Below are positions 20,929 to 60,226 of a stretch of 64,000 nt of DNA, one piece after another. The notes under the pieces were generated by a model, which was given only the letters and a program-made list of their open reading frames with translations, ran no database searches and was not told the origin of the DNA. Position 1 is the stretch's first letter, and each line of letters begins with the position of its first letter. The stretch covers positions 1 to 64,000 of the forward strand of contig NZ_SDWV01000007.1 in the NCBI RefSeq assembly GCF_004137345.1, given 5' to 3'. This stretch comes from Nocardioides zhouii (GTDB lineage Bacteria; Actinomycetota; Actinomycetes; Propionibacteriales; Nocardioidaceae). Both the position numbers and the translations under genes were made by a program.

Positions 20929-21528
20929 ATGAACCCGACCTACCTCCTCGCCGCCGTCGACCTGGTCGCCGTGCTGGTGCTCGCCATGGCCGTCTACTAC
21001 CCGCGCCACCGTCGCGCCGACCTCGTCACCGCCTTCATCGCCGTCAACGTCGGCGTCCTGGCGGTGACGATCGTGCTGTCCGGCAGCGCGGCGACCGTCG
21101 GCCTCGGGCTGGGGCTGTTCGGTGTCCTCTCGATCATCCGGCTCCGCTCCGACGAGCTCGGGCAGCACGAGATCGCCTACTACTTCGCCGCGCTGGCCAT
21201 CGGCCTCATCGGCGGCCTCGGCACCGGTGACGTCGCGCTCTCCGTCACCCTGATGGCCGCGTTGGTGGGCGTCCTCGCTCTTGCTGACAGCCGGCTGCTG
21301 CACGGCACCGGGCTGCGGCAGGTCGTCGTGCTCGACTCAGCGATCACCGACGAGGCGACGCTCGTCGAGCGCCTCGAGCTGCTGCTCGACGCCCGGGTCA
21401 CCCGCGTCACGCCGGTGCGCGTCGACCTGGTCAACGACACGACCACCGTCGAGGTCCACTACGCCGCAGCGTCCCGACCTGCCATGCCCCGGGTGGAGCG
21501 CCACGACGTGCCGGCGGTCACCCGATGA
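20929..21528 (+). CDS. DUF4956 membrane protein
   Basis: A 199-residue protein with about four N-terminal membrane helices (LLAAVDLVAVLVLAMAVYY, VTAFIAVNVGVLAVTIVL, TVGLGLGLFGVLSIIRLRS, IAYYFAALAIGLIGGLG) and a cytoplasmic ferredoxin-like C-terminal domain (about 130-185). The FGVLSIIRLRSDEL motif is characteristic of DUF4956. These proteins are nearly always encoded with VTC-domain and CotH genes, as here, and are thought to form part of a membrane polymerising or kinase complex. AAGGA precedes ATG 20929. Confidence 0.9.
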   Translation: MNPTYLLAAVDLVAVLVLAMAVYYPRHRRADLVTAFIAVNVGVLAVTIVLSGSAATVGLGLGLFGVLSIIRLRSDELGQHEIAYYFAALAIGLIGGLGTGDVALSVTLMAALVGVLALADSRLLHGTGLRQVVVLDSAITDEATLVERLELLLDARVTRVTPVRVDLVNDTTTVEVHYAAASRPAMPRVERHDVPAVTR

Positions 21529-21589: not shown

Positions 21590-22369
21590 ATGAGTGCCGT
21601 CGATCGCCTTCCGACCGTCTCCCTCGCCGAGCTCAACGAGCGGGCCGAGCTGCTGACCCGCACCGATCGCAAGTACGTCATCCCTGCGGGCGACCTCGAC
21701 GCCGTGCTGACCGGCATCCCCGGGATGCGCGTGCTGGAGATCGACGGCCGGCGCTCCTCGCGCTACGAGTCGACCTACCTCGACACCGTCGACCTCGACA
21801 GCTGGACCTCCGCCGCCCACCGCCGGCGGAGGCGGTGGAAGGTGCGGACGAGGACGTACGCCGACTCCGGCGAGCGCTGGCTCGAGGTCAAGACCCGCGG
21901 CCGCCGCGGCGTCACGGTCAAGGAACGGCTGCCCGGCTCCGGCGACGACATCCTCGTCATCGACGGGGGCGCGGGCGCGTGGGTGCGCGGCCGCCTCGCC
22001 GCGGCCCACGTGCACGACGTGGACCCGGCCGGTCTCGTGGCCACGCTGCACACGAGCTATCGCCGTACGACGCTCCTGCTCGACGGCGACACCGCCCGGG
22101 CGACCATCGACCGCGACCTCCGCTGGGTCTCCGGCCACGGCACCGCCGAGGTCGGCGACGTGCTGGTCGTCGAGACCAAGTCGGCCAGCGCCCGGCCCGG
22201 TCCACTCGACCGCCGGCTCTGGGAGCTCGGCCACCGGCCGACCCGGATCTCCAAGTACGGCACCGGACTCGCGCTCCTGACCCCCGACCTGCAGGGCAAC
22301 CGCTGGCACCGCGTCACCAGCCAGCACCTCGCCAGCCGGCTCACCCTGCACACCGGGGTGCTCGCATGA
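21590..22369 (+). CDS. VTC-domain polyphosphate polymerase-like protein
   Basis: A 259-residue cytoplasmic VTC domain, related to the catalytic part of yeast Vtc4 and to the triphosphate tunnel enzymes. Residues seen: RTDRKYVIP near the N-terminus, RYESTYLDT, RKVR-like basic strand KVRTRTYADSGERWLEVK, TVKERLP and VVETKSASARPG, and the ending RISKYGTGL. These supply the Lys, Arg and Glu of a phosphate tunnel. Bacterial VTC proteins beside CotH may bind or make polyphosphate; activity is inferred. Its ATG follows the 59-bp repeat, and its stop overlaps the cotH start as ATGA. Confidence 0.9.
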   Translation: MSAVDRLPTVSLAELNERAELLTRTDRKYVIPAGDLDAVLTGIPGMRVLEIDGRRSSRYESTYLDTVDLDSWTSAAHRRRRRWKVRTRTYADSGERWLEVKTRGRRGVTVKERLPGSGDDILVIDGGAGAWVRGRLAAAHVHDVDPAGLVATLHTSYRRTTLLLDGDTARATIDRDLRWVSGHGTAEVGDVLVVETKSASARPGPLDRRLWELGHRPTRISKYGTGLALLTPDLQGNRWHRVTSQHLASRLTLHTGVLA

Positions 22370-22854
22370 GGCGCGGGCTCGCCGGTGTCGTTGCCGTTGC
22401 CGCCCTCACGCTCGGTGGCTGCGCCGACGGGGGCCCGCCGGACGCGGGATCGGGAGTCTCCGCGGCCGCTCGTACGGTGGCCGACGGCGCCGGCGTCTGG
22501 GACGCGAGCACCGTCCACCAGATCGCGATCGAGGTCGACGAGTCCGCGGTCGCCGCGATGATCGACACCTACCAGGAGACGGACGAGAAGGAGTGGCTGG
22601 AGGCCGCGGTCACGATCGACGGCACCACCTTCGAGCACGCGGGCATCCGGCTGAAGGGCAACTCCTCCCTGCGCGGCGTCGGCGACGGCGCCGACCCGAC
22701 CGACCTGCCGTGGCTCGTACGCCTCGACGAGTACGTCGACGGCCAGGCGCTGGACGGCTGGACCGAGCTCGTGGTGCGGTCGAACGGCTCCGAGACCGCG
22801 CTCAACGAGGCGGTGGCGCTCGACCTGCTCGCGAAGGCCGGCCTCGCGAGCGAG
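22366..22854 (+). pseudogene. cotH: CotH family protein, 5' half (split by inversion)
   Basis: Residues 1-163 of a CotH protein. A lipoprotein signal (VAVAALTLGGCADGG, Cys about 19) is followed by the CotH N-terminal region: ALNEAVALDLL and IRLKGNSSLRGVG are typical of this atypical kinase-like family. After GLASE the frame runs into palindromic repeat sequence and then antisense cotH, giving a meaningless tail to 23166. The remaining 217 codons lie inverted at 22893-23546. Joining GAG (22852-22854) to CAC (complement of 23544-23546) gives GLASEHAIASSFSVNG, a normal CotH continuation. The gene is the last of the DUF4956-VTC-cotH operon and is disrupted in this orientation. Confidence 0.93.
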
Positions 22855-22895
22855 TGCCCGGTCAGAGGTCAGGACGGGCACGAAGTGCCCGGTCA
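22855..22895. repeat. palindromic repeat cluster, left (half unit plus full unit)
   Basis: A half unit TGCCCGGTCA (22855-22864) abuts the cotH breakpoint, followed by a full unit (22873-22895) with arms GACGGGCAC and GTGCCCGGTC around GAA. The last three bases (22893-22895) are the stop codon of the inverted cotH 3' half. The half unit is the missing partner of the half at 23547-23560. Confidence 0.88.
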
Positions 22896-23546
22896 GCTGA
22901 GCACGTCGCGGATTTCGTCGGCCTCCTGCTGCACGGTGTCGGCGTCCACGAGGGCGTTGGACCCGCCGCGCATCCCGCCGCCGGCGCCCCCGGGGCCGCC
23001 CTCCGGCCGCTCGCCGTCCGGCATCTCGGGCATCCCCTCTGGCGCTCCCTCCGGGCGCTCGCCCGGGAAGCCGCCGGGGCCGCCACCGGAGCCGCCGGGC
23101 GACCCGCCGAACGCGAGGTTGTGGTCCCACGCGACGACGGTGAACCCGCCGGACTCGGCGTCGTAGCGGAGGTAGGCGTTGTTGCCCGGACCGTCGATGT
23201 CGTCGAAGTTGCCGACGAGCTCCTCGAACGCGAGGTAGCGGGCGAAGGCCTCCACGTCGAGCCGTTCGGGCAGCTCGGCGGCGAAGTCCTCGTCGCTGCT
23301 GGTGTCGAGGAACTCGAGGAAGTCGATCAACGGCGTCAGGTCGTCGTCGCCGGTCTCCTGGTCGAAGACGTCGGTGTACGCGTCGGGGTCGTCGCCCCGG
23401 TAGGTCCAGTCGCCGCCGGCCTCGGCCTTGTAGAGCAGGCCGGGGGTGCTGAAGTTCTCCGCCTCCCAGGCCTCGTCGAGCCCCTGGACGACCAGGCGCA
23501 GGCGGGCGTCCGCGCCGTTGACGCTGAACGACGACGCGATCGCGTG
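22893..23546 (-). pseudogene. cotH: CotH family protein, 3' half (inverted)
   Basis: 217 codons encoding the C-terminal part of CotH on the opposite strand from its 5' half. It has LLYKAEAGGDWTYRG, DPDAYTDVFDQ, YLAFEELVGNFDDIDGPG, NNAYLRYD and VVAWDHNLAFG, all classic CotH kinase-core motifs including the DxN-type metal site. A Gly/Pro/Glu-rich tail follows (PGGFPGERPEGAPEGMPEM). The open frame extends back to 23624, but those 26 residues are palindrome sequence. No promoter or ribosome site is seen, so it is unlikely to be expressed in this state. Confidence 0.93.
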
Positions 23547-23623
23547 CTTCGTGCCCGTCCTCATCGGCGGACGGGCACGAACTGCCCGGTCGGTCTTCAT
23601 GACCGGCACGAAGTGCCCGGTCA
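23547..23623. repeat. palindromic repeat cluster, right (half unit plus two units)
   Basis: The half unit CTTCGTGCCCGTCC (23547-23560) abuts the inversion breakpoint. Full units follow at 23570-23591 and 23601-23623. The last one includes the stop codon of the EcsC gene (23621-23623), mirroring how another copy holds the cotH stop. In the restored order this forms a multi-hairpin array between two convergent genes. Confidence 0.88.
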
Positions 23624-24328
23624 CTGCACGGCGGGGAACTCCGTCATCGCATGGTCGGCGATCTTCTTCATCATGAAGCCGTCGATGCCGCCTCCGACGA
23701 GCCCGCCGGCCACGGGGATGCCGCGGCCGAAGCGGGAGAGCACCTTTTCGCTCACCCCGCGCATCAGGCGGAAGCCGACGGCCTTGTTGACCACCATCAG
23801 CGCCGCGGGCGGCAGGCCCTTGAGGGCGTACGACGTGACGCGGCTGCCGGCGGTCGCCATCCCGGCTTTCTTGAGCACCTCGTCGGAGTCCGAGCCGACG
23901 AGCGTGAGGAGGACGGCCGTACGCACCCGCGGCTCGGCGATGTCGTACCCCCGGAGCGTCGCGATGCCGCCGACCATCCGCACGGCCTGGACGTAGAACT
24001 CCGCGACGTTGACCGGCAGCGCAACCGGCATCGTGACGAAGCCGCCGAGCCCGGTGACGAAGCCACCGATGCTGCCGGTGACCATCGTCGAGCGGGCGAG
24101 CCGGTTGATCGCCTGCTCGCGGTCGCCGTGGGTCTTGGCGAGCGCCCCGTCGGCCAGCTCGCGCGCCGAGCTCAGCGGTCCGCGCCCCTCGAGCCCCGTG
24201 TCGACCAGCATTGCGACGAGCTTGTCGATCGCACCGGGGTCGGGGTCGACGTCATTGGCGGCGTCGAGCGCGGCGCGCGTCTTCTTCGTCTCGGAGCGGC
24301 CCGGCTTGAGCATGTCGATGAGTCCCAT
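23621..24328 (-). CDS. EcsC family protein
   Basis: A 235-residue protein of the EcsC family: MGLIDMLKPGRS at the N-terminus, Ala/Gly-rich central helices (GSIGGFVTGLGGFVTMPVALPVNVAEFYVQAV), SDSDEVLKKAGM, and the Gly-rich ending GIPVAGGLVGGGIDGFMMKK. EcsC-like proteins are membrane-associated and of unknown biochemical role. I chose ATG 24328; a start at 24367 would add an Arg-rich leader. Its stop codon lies inside a palindromic repeat. Confidence 0.85.
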   Translation of the reverse strand: MGLIDMLKPGRSETKKTRAALDAANDVDPDPGAIDKLVAMLVDTGLEGRGPLSSARELADGALAKTHGDREQAINRLARSTMVTGSIGGFVTGLGGFVTMPVALPVNVAEFYVQAVRMVGGIATLRGYDIAEPRVRTAVLLTLVGSDSDEVLKKAGMATAGSRVTSYALKGLPPAALMVVNKAVGFRLMRGVSEKVLSRFGRGIPVAGGLVGGGIDGFMMKKIADHAMTEFPAVQ

Positions 24329-24392
24329 GCCGGGGAGCCTACGAACCCAGCGCCGGTGGCGGCTCACCCGAGCGAGTCTTTCAGCGCTGCGA

Positions 24393-58326: not shown

Positions 58327-60069
58327 GTGAGCGTGAGTGACGACCAGCCCGACGCCCCCCAGCAGACCTTCGCCGACCTCGGTCTCTCGCCCGAGGTCCT
58401 CAAGGCCCTGTCCGACGTCGGCTACGAGTCGCCGTCGCAGATCCAGGCCCAGACCATCCCGCCTCTGCTCGAGGGTCGTCACGTCGTCGGGCTCGCCCAG
58501 ACCGGGACCGGCAAGACCGCGGCCTTCGCGCTGCCGATCCTGTCGCAGCTCGACATGAACCAGAAGACCCCGCAGGCGCTCGTCCTGGCCCCGACCCGCG
58601 AGCTCGCGCTCCAGGTCTCGGAGGCCTTCGAGAAGTACGCCGCGCACATGAAGGGCGTACGCGTCCTGCCGATCTACGGCGGCCAGGGCTACGGCGTCCA
58701 GCTCTCCGCGCTGCGCCGCGGCGTCCACGTCGTGGTCGGCACGCCCGGTCGCATCATGGACCACCTCGAGAAGGGCACGCTCGACCTGTCCGAGCTGCGC
58801 TTCCTTGTCCTCGACGAGGCCGACGAGATGCTCAAGATGGGCTTCGCGGAGGACGTCGAGACGATCCTCGCCGACACCCCCGACAGCAAGCACGTGGCGC
58901 TGTTCTCGGCCACGATGCCGGCGCAGATCCGCCGCATCTCCAAGAAGTACCTCCACGACCCGGTCGAGATCACCGTCAAGAACAAGACGTCGACGGTCTC
59001 CTCGATCACCCAGCGCTACCTGATCGTGTCGTACCCGCAGAAGGTCGACGCCCTCACGCGCATCCTCGAGGTCGAGAACTTCGAGGGGATGATCGTGTTC
59101 GTCCGCACCAAGAACGAGACCGAGACGCTCGCCGAGAAGCTCCGCGCGCGCGGCTACTCCGCGATGGCGATCAACGGCGACGTCGCCCAGGTGCAGCGTG
59201 AGCGCACGATCAACCAGCTCAAGGCCGGCAAGCTCGACATCCTGGTCGCGACCGACGTCGCCGCCCGCGGCCTCGACGTCGAGCGGATCAGCCACGTCGT
59301 CAACTACGACATCCCCACCGACACCGAGTCCTACGTCCACCGCATCGGGCGTACGGGCCGCGCCGGGCGCAGCGGCGACTCGATCGCCTTCGTCACCCCG
59401 CGCGAGCGCCACCTGCTGCGCTCGATCGAGAAGGCCACCCGCCAGCCGCTCACCCAGATGCAGCTGCCGACGGTCGACGACGTGAACGCCACCCGCCTGT
59501 CCCGCTTCGACGAGCAGATCACCCAGGCGCTGACCGAGCCGGACCGGATCGACTTCTTCCGCGACGTGGTCTCGCACTATGTCAGCGAGCACGACGTGCC
59601 CGAGGTCGACGTCGCCGCCGCCCTGGCCGCCGTCATGCACGGCGCCCAGCCGCTGCTGCTCGAGCCGGAGCCGGAGCGGTCCACGCGCACCTTCGACGAG
59701 CGCCCCACGCACGGCGGCAAGGCCGAGCGCGCGCCGCGGGAGTCGCGCACCGGCCAGCCGATGGCGGCGTACCGCATCGAGGTCGGCAAGCGCCACAAGG
59801 TCGAGCCGCGCCAGATCGTCGGCGCGCTCGCCAACGAGGGCGGCCTCTCGCGCGGCGACTTCGGCTACATCTCGATCAAGCCGGACTTCTCCGTCGTCGA
59901 GCTGCCCGCCGACCTGCCCGCCGGCACGATCGAGCGCCTCGCGGCCACCCGTATCTCTGGCAAGCTCATCGAGATCAAGCCCGACAACGGCCCGTTCCGC
60001 GGCCGTCCAGGCGGCGGCCACCGCGGCAGCTCGTCCGGCGGCGGCTACAAGGGCAAGAACCCCCGCTGA
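58327..60069 (+). CDS. deaD: DEAD-box RNA helicase (CsdA/DeaD type)
   Basis: A 580-residue helicase. Q motif FADLGLSPEVLKAL, Walker A AQTGTGKTAAF, Ia APTRELALQ, DEAD box VLDEADEML, SAT motif FSATMPAQ, and VI in HRIGRTGRAGRSG. The C-terminal DbpA-like RNA-binding domain (about 475-555) has YRIEVGKRHKVEPRQIVGALANEG and FGYISIKPDFSVVELP, and a Gly-rich basic tail follows. It unwinds structured RNA in ribosome assembly or decay. Start GTG 58327 is likely; the stop lies within a palindromic repeat. Confidence 0.95.
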   Translation: MSVSDDQPDAPQQTFADLGLSPEVLKALSDVGYESPSQIQAQTIPPLLEGRHVVGLAQTGTGKTAAFALPILSQLDMNQKTPQALVLAPTRELALQVSEAFEKYAAHMKGVRVLPIYGGQGYGVQLSALRRGVHVVVGTPGRIMDHLEKGTLDLSELRFLVLDEADEMLKMGFAEDVETILADTPDSKHVALFSATMPAQIRRISKKYLHDPVEITVKNKTSTVSSITQRYLIVSYPQKVDALTRILEVENFEGMIVFVRTKNETETLAEKLRARGYSAMAINGDVAQVQRERTINQLKAGKLDILVATDVAARGLDVERISHVVNYDIPTDTESYVHRIGRTGRAGRSGDSIAFVTPRERHLLRSIEKATRQPLTQMQLPTVDDVNATRLSRFDEQITQALTEPDRIDFFRDVVSHYVSEHDVPEVDVAAALAAVMHGAQPLLLEPEPERSTRTFDERPTHGGKAERAPRESRTGQPMAAYRIEVGKRHKVEPRQIVGALANEGGLSRGDFGYISIKPDFSVVELPADLPAGTIERLAATRISGKLIEIKPDNGPFRGRPGGGHRGSSSGGGYKGKNPR

Positions 60070-60226
60070 CCGGGCGGTTCCTCGCGCTGACATGCACTGA
60101 CCGGGCGCTTCGTGCCCGTCCTGAACGCCGACCGGGCACCTCGTGCCCGTCCTGAACGCCGACCGGGCACCTCGTGCGAAACGAGGTGCCCGGTCGATCA
60201 TGGTGACGGGCACGAAGTGCCCGCTC
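60067..60226. repeat. palindromic repeat array between helicase and yceI
   Basis: At least four clear units: 60098-60120, 60130-60151, 60161-60195 and 60205-60226, plus a degenerate one starting at the helicase stop (60067). Consensus arms are GACCGGGCAC and GTGCCCGTC around a 3-nt TTC or CTC. A 31-bp tandem period (starting CTGAACGCC) runs 60121-60177. The third unit forms a 15-bp stem (60161-60175 with 60181-60195) and a GCGAA loop. The same family flanks the cotH inversion. Confidence 0.9.

Follow-up and report, generated by a model that had tools for sequence, protein, structure and literature searches.

A cotH gene split by a 692-bp inversion at a dispersed palindromic repeat array in the Nocardioides zhouii assembly, with a candidate AbiEi/Vsr-like partner

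Repetitive extragenic palindromic (REP) sequences are short palindromes dispersed in bacterial genomes, and those carrying a GTAG tag are tied, in PMC3733652, to HUH tyrosine transposases, the REP-associated tyrosine transposases (RAYTs). The locus described here lies in a stretch of 64,000 nucleotides of Nocardioides zhouii (contig NZ_SDWV01000007.1, positions 1 to 64,000; hereafter the window), where, in the assembly, a 692-bp inversion splits the gene cotH and has one of its ends within an array of 31-bp palindromic repeats. The same repeats flank, elsewhere in the genome, a single gene for a protein with a predicted AbiEi-like fold and a predicted Vsr-like endonuclease fold. We consider it probable that the array broke at its hairpin, possibly by action of this AbiEi/Vsr-like nuclease, and that the segment was rejoined backwards by end joining.

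Compared to the REP doublets and their transposases (REPIN/RAYT), as presented in PMC3116915 and PMC3733652, the repeats studied here share (i) short palindromes in many dispersed copies, found in the N. zhouii genome under study (G000) and in two further genomes (G072 and G267), (ii) inverted doublets that can fold into one hairpin, given the order of forward (F) and reverse (R) units, F..F R..R, and the rebuilt cotH array, (iii) a frequent location 3' of genes, and (iv) one gene flanked by its own repeats, with lineage-specific units. On the other hand, the partner here is a predicted AbiEi-like and Vsr-fold protein and no Y1/HUH transposase, the repeats lack the GTAG tag, they form regular 31/32-bp tandem arrays, and they occur in Actinomycetes. 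The word Actinobacteria occurs 0 times in PMC3733652, although one passage there mentions REP-like sequences reported earlier from M. tuberculosis, which have no conserved motifs at their ends. With an unrelated partner in place of a Y1/HUH enzyme, the system is therefore not classed as REPIN-RAYT, despite a presumably similar way of working.

CGTC-tagged REPs, reported without a dedicated transposase in PMC3733652, are likewise dispersed palindromes, and the G000 unit has a CGTC end; nevertheless, the units of related species end otherwise, e.g. CTCGCGCT, and AT pairs, which are described there for CGTC stems, are missing from the stem. AbiEi, from the AbiE type IV toxin-antitoxin system (6y8q), resembles the N-terminal two thirds of the protein in predicted fold and, according to PMC7319586, binds inverted repeats, whereas the protein described here has an extra C-terminal endonuclease-fold domain and its repeats are dispersed in the genome. 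Compared to Vsr, DUF559 and REase_MTES_1575 proteins, the predicted nuclease domain is fused to the AbiEi-like region and flanked by cognate arrays. Phase-variation switches of the Hin/Gin type comprise invertible short segments. The cotH locus resembles them in the conservative inversion of a short segment that alters a surface-type gene, but differs in having no matching inverted recombination sites (AG/CT only), no recombinase among six scanned neighbours, and one orientation in the assembly.

No description of repeats tied to an AbiEi/DUF559 gene was found in titles or abstracts among the open-licence PMC matches listed. If the pairing holds, a second, unrelated protein would be tied to its own repeats, and dispersed palindromes would have evolved with different enzymes. 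It would also suggest a function for a large protein family that PADLOC models read as AbiEi, with the arrays beside its own gene as the candidate DNA target. The cotH inversion is itself a concrete case of gene breakage at an array of this kind.

The inversion in cotH

The N-terminal piece of cotH occupies 22366-22854 on the forward strand (codons 1-163, last residues GLASE), and the C-terminal piece runs on the reverse strand from 23546 to 22893 (codons 164-380, that is 217 codons, and the stop; first residues HAIAS). The original prediction of a precise 692-bp inversion with these limits was confirmed: re-flipping the segment 22855-23546 regains a single frame of 380 codons for a 380-aa protein, with the junction AKAGLASEHAIASSFSV, and also rebuilds, 3' of cotH, an array of four units in the order F F R R. 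Before the re-flip, the region comprises complete units at 22873 (R), 23570 (R) and 23601 (R) and two half units; after it, the units start at 23507 (F), 23538 (F), 23570 (R) and 23601 (R), with the members of the F pair and those of the R pair each 31 nt apart. The re-flip identifies the half units as the left half of unit F2, TGCCCGGTCA (22855-22864, reverse strand), and its right half, CTTCGTGCCCGTCC (23547-23560, forward strand). Unit F1, a complete 22-nt palindrome (22873-22894, reverse strand), was recognised by the repeat pattern and the re-flip and has moved along with the inversion. Units R1 (23570-23591, matched with one mismatch) and R2 (23601-23622), both on the reverse strand, lie beyond the segment, the last bases of R2 forming, together with position 23623, the stop codon of a convergent EcsC-family gene (23621-24367, reverse strand; PF12787).

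The array-side break lies inside unit F2, between GACCGGGCA and CTTCGTGCCC, as anticipated for a breakpoint within a palindromic repeat, and the cotH-side break falls in ordinary coding sequence with no repeat unit. When both ends were shifted by up to 15 nt, 320 of the 961 resulting flips regained the cotH frame and 8 regained both the frame and the four units, all 8 on one diagonal, which bears out the claimed double repair from one operation. The scan also agrees with the claim that the breaks have only 2 nt in common (AG/CT), making the segment ends ambiguous by 2 nt and three adjacent break positions equivalent; because these nucleotides are common to both breaks, the flips 22853/23548, 22854/23547 and 22855/23546 give identical junction residues.

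Recombination between long inverted repeats was rejected, in line with the original prediction: of the inverted pairs spanning the segment, the best one (22854-22894 with 23538-23578) matches palindrome against palindrome, out of register with the breaks, and no long inverted repeats stand in register at both of them. The computed fold of the 128-nt stretch with the rebuilt array is a single long hairpin with a minimum free energy of -101 kcal/mol (RNA parameters), which keeps a hairpin-linked break, as originally proposed, the best origin. In the folded array the break lies at a C:C mismatch, which was not used as evidence because roughly a quarter of all sites are estimated to touch an unpaired base.

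The uninterrupted gene is found in relatives. Matches to the C-terminal piece occur in 26 of 118 genomes of the genus, N. zhouii included, and in 17 of the 25 other congeners the N-terminal piece, aligned to residue 163, ends and the C-terminal piece starts at exactly the breakpoint codon of one frame. The N-terminal match stops early in two congeners (L007 at residue 144, L020 at residue 105), and six display weak partial matches only. The re-flip makes the cotH stop face the convergent EcsC-domain gene, an arrangement seen directly after cotH in 10 of the 18 relatives inspected (L042-L047, L049, L050, L052 and L053; neighbour recognised by eye).

The CotH kinase match (PF08757, E 8.5e-21) is confined to the C-terminal piece, with none in the N-terminal piece; the split therefore parts a 163-residue N-terminal stretch from the kinase core, and most likely inactivates cotH. 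Codon comparison with ten relatives discloses no decay in either half, so the inversion is likely recent; the lack of decay fits this and gives no date. The N-terminal piece remains open after the inversion for about 100 further codons through the antisense of its own C-terminal part (21835-23166 of the window, forward strand), and a chimeric protein could be made from this frame.

The dispersed repeat family and its flanked gene

The pattern GACCGGGCACTTCGTGCCCGTC, with up to three mismatches, has 42 matches in the 4.6-Mb N. zhouii genome and 0 in its reversed control; a three-mismatch match such as that on C24 is isolated and possibly due to chance. The unit, TGACCGGGCACTTCGTGCCCGTC, carries no GTAG tag. 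Most units are 31 nt apart, and the F copies precede the R copies in every multi-unit array listed for this genome, an order that the rebuilt cotH array shares. The window contains two arrays, both between convergent genes: the one at cotH/EcsC (after the re-flip) and a second, recognised by pattern match at 60067-60226, between a DEAD-box helicase gene and a YceI gene. The array ends provide stop codons, the TGA of the first unit terminating cotH (after the re-flip) and the helicase gene, and the last TCA terminating the EcsC gene. Tandem units after the cotH stop are absent from the 18 relatives inspected, two of which carry the repeat family elsewhere (L050, N. furvisabuli, and L051, N. potassii); judged from these sequences, the cotH array looks like a lineage-specific insertion. 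In N. furvisabuli (L050, 4838-5000), two different hairpin-like palindromes with the cores ACTTCCACTCG and CGAGTGGAA occupy the cotH-EcsC junction, which may receive repeats repeatedly.

At one locus of the N. zhouii genome (G000:C33:133688-134957), four F and four R units flank a single 336-aa gene, located between pgl (6-phosphogluconolactonase) and rbpA. The predicted fold of the protein comprises an AbiEi-like N-terminal two thirds, comparable with 6y8q, and a C-terminal domain for which the Vsr endonuclease fold is predicted. Five conserved residues (E220, D253, E264, H271 and D279) suggest an active site in the predicted nuclease. The gene stands alone between its arrays, and the four scanned neighbours (OpcA, pgl, RbpA and TIM) are metabolic and RNA-polymerase-binding proteins, with no DUF1814 toxin gene among them, as distinct from AbiE. 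A search for the Y1/RAYT transposase (PF01797) gave no match in N. zhouii and matches in 5 of 14 control genomes. The original suggestion of a REP-transposase-like activity is borne out as regards dispersed REP-like palindromes flanking a candidate gene, and not as regards the transposase itself.

In the 10 closest congeners (62-76% identity: G019, G070, G095, G012, G073, G007, G045, G083, G086 and G030), similar units, spaced by 31 or 32 nt, form inverted arrays on the two sides of the gene, as judged from flanks viewed by eye for nine, with the same neighbours, and from the positions of the units in the remaining one. Their head is GACCGGGCACTTC or a close variant, and the second half varies by species, including GTGCCCGTC, CTCGCGCTG, CTGCCCGTC and CTCCCCGTC. 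At two loci of G045 (G045:C1:261398-263270 and G045:C11:432525-435054; L103 and L104), F and R units are separated by 1.8 and 2.4 kb, with other DNA in between.

A degenerate tandem-unit pattern built from the closest-congener loci matches 19 of 118 genomes of the genus, with 1 match of the reversed control in each of 2 of the 118. Each of the 11 genomes with a best homolog above 440 bits has at least two matches, versus 6 of the 107 others; G086 has only 2 tandem-unit matches, too few to show dispersal. Of 197 genomes sampled from the class, 134 contain homologs (E <= 1e-15), a breadth that refers to the protein, the flanks having been examined at the top-scoring rather than at random loci: (i) 69 in Nocardioides, i.e., 72 including that of N. 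zhouii minus L126, L163 and L180 with short flanks, and (ii) 18 in other genera of the class, i.e., 20 minus 2 with short flanks. With an inverted-repeat score of at least 30, flanks of at least 200 nt and windows shifted 600 nt outward in the same loci as control, inverted repeats flank the gene in 68/69 Nocardioides loci (0/66 shifted windows) and in 17/18 loci of other genera (0/17 shifted windows). At a score of 40, they are retained at 66/69 and 15/18 loci, respectively, versus no shifted window, and a shuffle test allowing shorter flanks placed 69 of 71 loci above the 99th percentile of the shuffles. Tandem units of at least 80% identity are found in 35 of the 69 loci and in 0/66 shifted windows, 14 with a period of 31 and 18 with a period of 32. 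A mismatched-genome control for flank similarity was dropped in favour of the shifted windows, because synteny gives the flanks high scores (up to 519 and 350) in comparisons of different genomes.

Remoter homologs are flanked by different units of the same design with a period of 32, e.g. in G058, G060, G072 and G087, and the pairing of unit and gene is lineage-specific. The flank unit of G072 has 70 matches in its own genome, 9 of them beside the gene; elsewhere, it has 0 in G000, G058, G060 and G012, 1 each in G087 and G023, and 7 in G001, all with 3 mismatches and attributable to a related unit, the reversed controls giving 1 in G072, 2 in G058, 1 in G087 and 1 in G001. G267 belongs to another family of the class; its flank unit is matched 89 times in its own genome (7 of them beside the gene), 4 times in G206, once in G193 and 0 times in seven others, with all reversed controls at 0. 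Both units being dispersed, the flanking repeats are therefore the dispersed repeats of these genomes. Unit similarity increases with protein identity (Mantel r 0.34, p 0.0005, 56 loci), also for pairs below 50% protein identity (r 0.21, p 0.0005), shared ancestry contributing to both correlations; two paralogs of the same genome can differ in their units, with a unit score per nt of 0.27 in G060 and 0.20 in G044. In several further actinomycete genera (L202, L203 and L206-L210), family members have flanks with the common core GATCATGCA, which may represent a separate, widespread type of unit, with dispersal known for one form, in G267.

Origin of the inversion and alternative explanations

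The following sequence of events would account for the locus. The AbiEi-like region would recognise its own units and the Vsr-like domain would nick at or near them, with copies then placed at gene 3' ends, the role attributed to RAYTs in the case of REPINs. After this, the array at cotH would have broken near the hairpin tip, by the AbiEi/Vsr-like protein, hairpin processing or fork stalling, and the free ends would have been connected, in reversed direction, with another break inside cotH, through Ku-type joining. The N. zhouii genome encodes Ku, so end joining is possible. By analogy with REP elements, the arrays and the AbiEi/Vsr-like gene likely form a mobile-repeat system with an unrelated protein, and the event itself was most likely a one-off loss of cotH, an accident at a repeat array and no switch. 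The broader proposal, a counterpart of REPIN-RAYT across the Actinomycete class in which an AbiEi-like/Vsr-fold nickase binds, nicks and spreads its own 31/32-bp arrays and caused the cotH inversion by stray cuts, is advanced tentatively, at somewhat less than even chances. Several observations weigh against the account as a whole: position is the sole link between the AbiEi/Vsr-like protein and the inversion; flanking repeats are not significant at L158 (score 25), L180 (16, short flank) and L218 (18); and orphan arrays of the CCGGGC type occur in G116, G088, G017 and G074, where the rbpA-side member of the family has no flanking units of this type. The rbpA-side members in these genomes have other units, clear in L138, L140 and L144 and weak in L139 (score 32), and the orphan arrays were possibly left by gene replacement; G044 and G075 are not orphans, their homologs being flanked by CCGGGC-type units.

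That the arrays are only bidirectional terminators, or operators of an AbiEi-type regulator, with the flanked gene not moving them, would suit the position of both window arrays between convergent genes, touching stop codons, and the binding of AbiEi proteins to inverted repeats in their promoters (PMC7319586); it is nonetheless rather doubtful, since an operator fails to explain tens of dispersed copies or an array downstream of the gene too, and a terminator fails to explain why the gene-flank unit predicts the dispersed unit in each tested genome. An inversion by template switching at a stalled hairpin, with neither nuclease nor end joining, has a comparable minor share of the probability: the long hairpin adjoins one break and a 2-nt microhomology fits this replication error as well as end joining, but two switches are needed for a perfectly balanced inversion, and no observation separates it from breakage and joining.

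An assembly or library artefact, in which the hairpin array gave chimeric reads and cotH is in truth intact, appears unlikely. The inversion is known from the assembly alone, which is in 47 contigs, and the array is a strong hairpin; however, one flip accounts for both junctions, which are exactly reciprocal and have lost no base, 2 nt in common are too few for a k-mer mis-join, and the other arrays of the genome are assembled with regular 31-nt spacing. Such a balanced, base-exact inversion is unexpected for a k-mer assembly error, which is an argument and not a test. Least probable by far is a programmed ON/OFF inversion of cotH by a site-specific recombinase. A 2-bp overlap is typical of serine recombinases, and the conservative, base-exact inversion of a surface-type gene with such an overlap would be in keeping with one, but the serine-recombinase interpretation was rejected as the arms of the two sites do not match beyond AG/CT. 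Moreover, all 17 relatives with both pieces aligned are uninterrupted, and the six neighbouring genes scanned include no recombinase, the rest of the genome not having been searched for one. The reversible switch entertained in the original prediction is further disfavoured by the lack of a repeat unit at the cotH end, by a locus that matches the assembly once and in one orientation only, and by the lack of a near-identical intact cotH protein among the best 120 of 266 matches of a protein search, where P0003 is this genome's own annotation. A break at the hairpin array followed by end joining remains the preferred explanation.

Upstream of cotH, the same predicted operon comprises a DUF4956 gene (20929-21528, forward strand; PF16316) and a VTC-domain gene (21590-22369, forward strand; PF09359).
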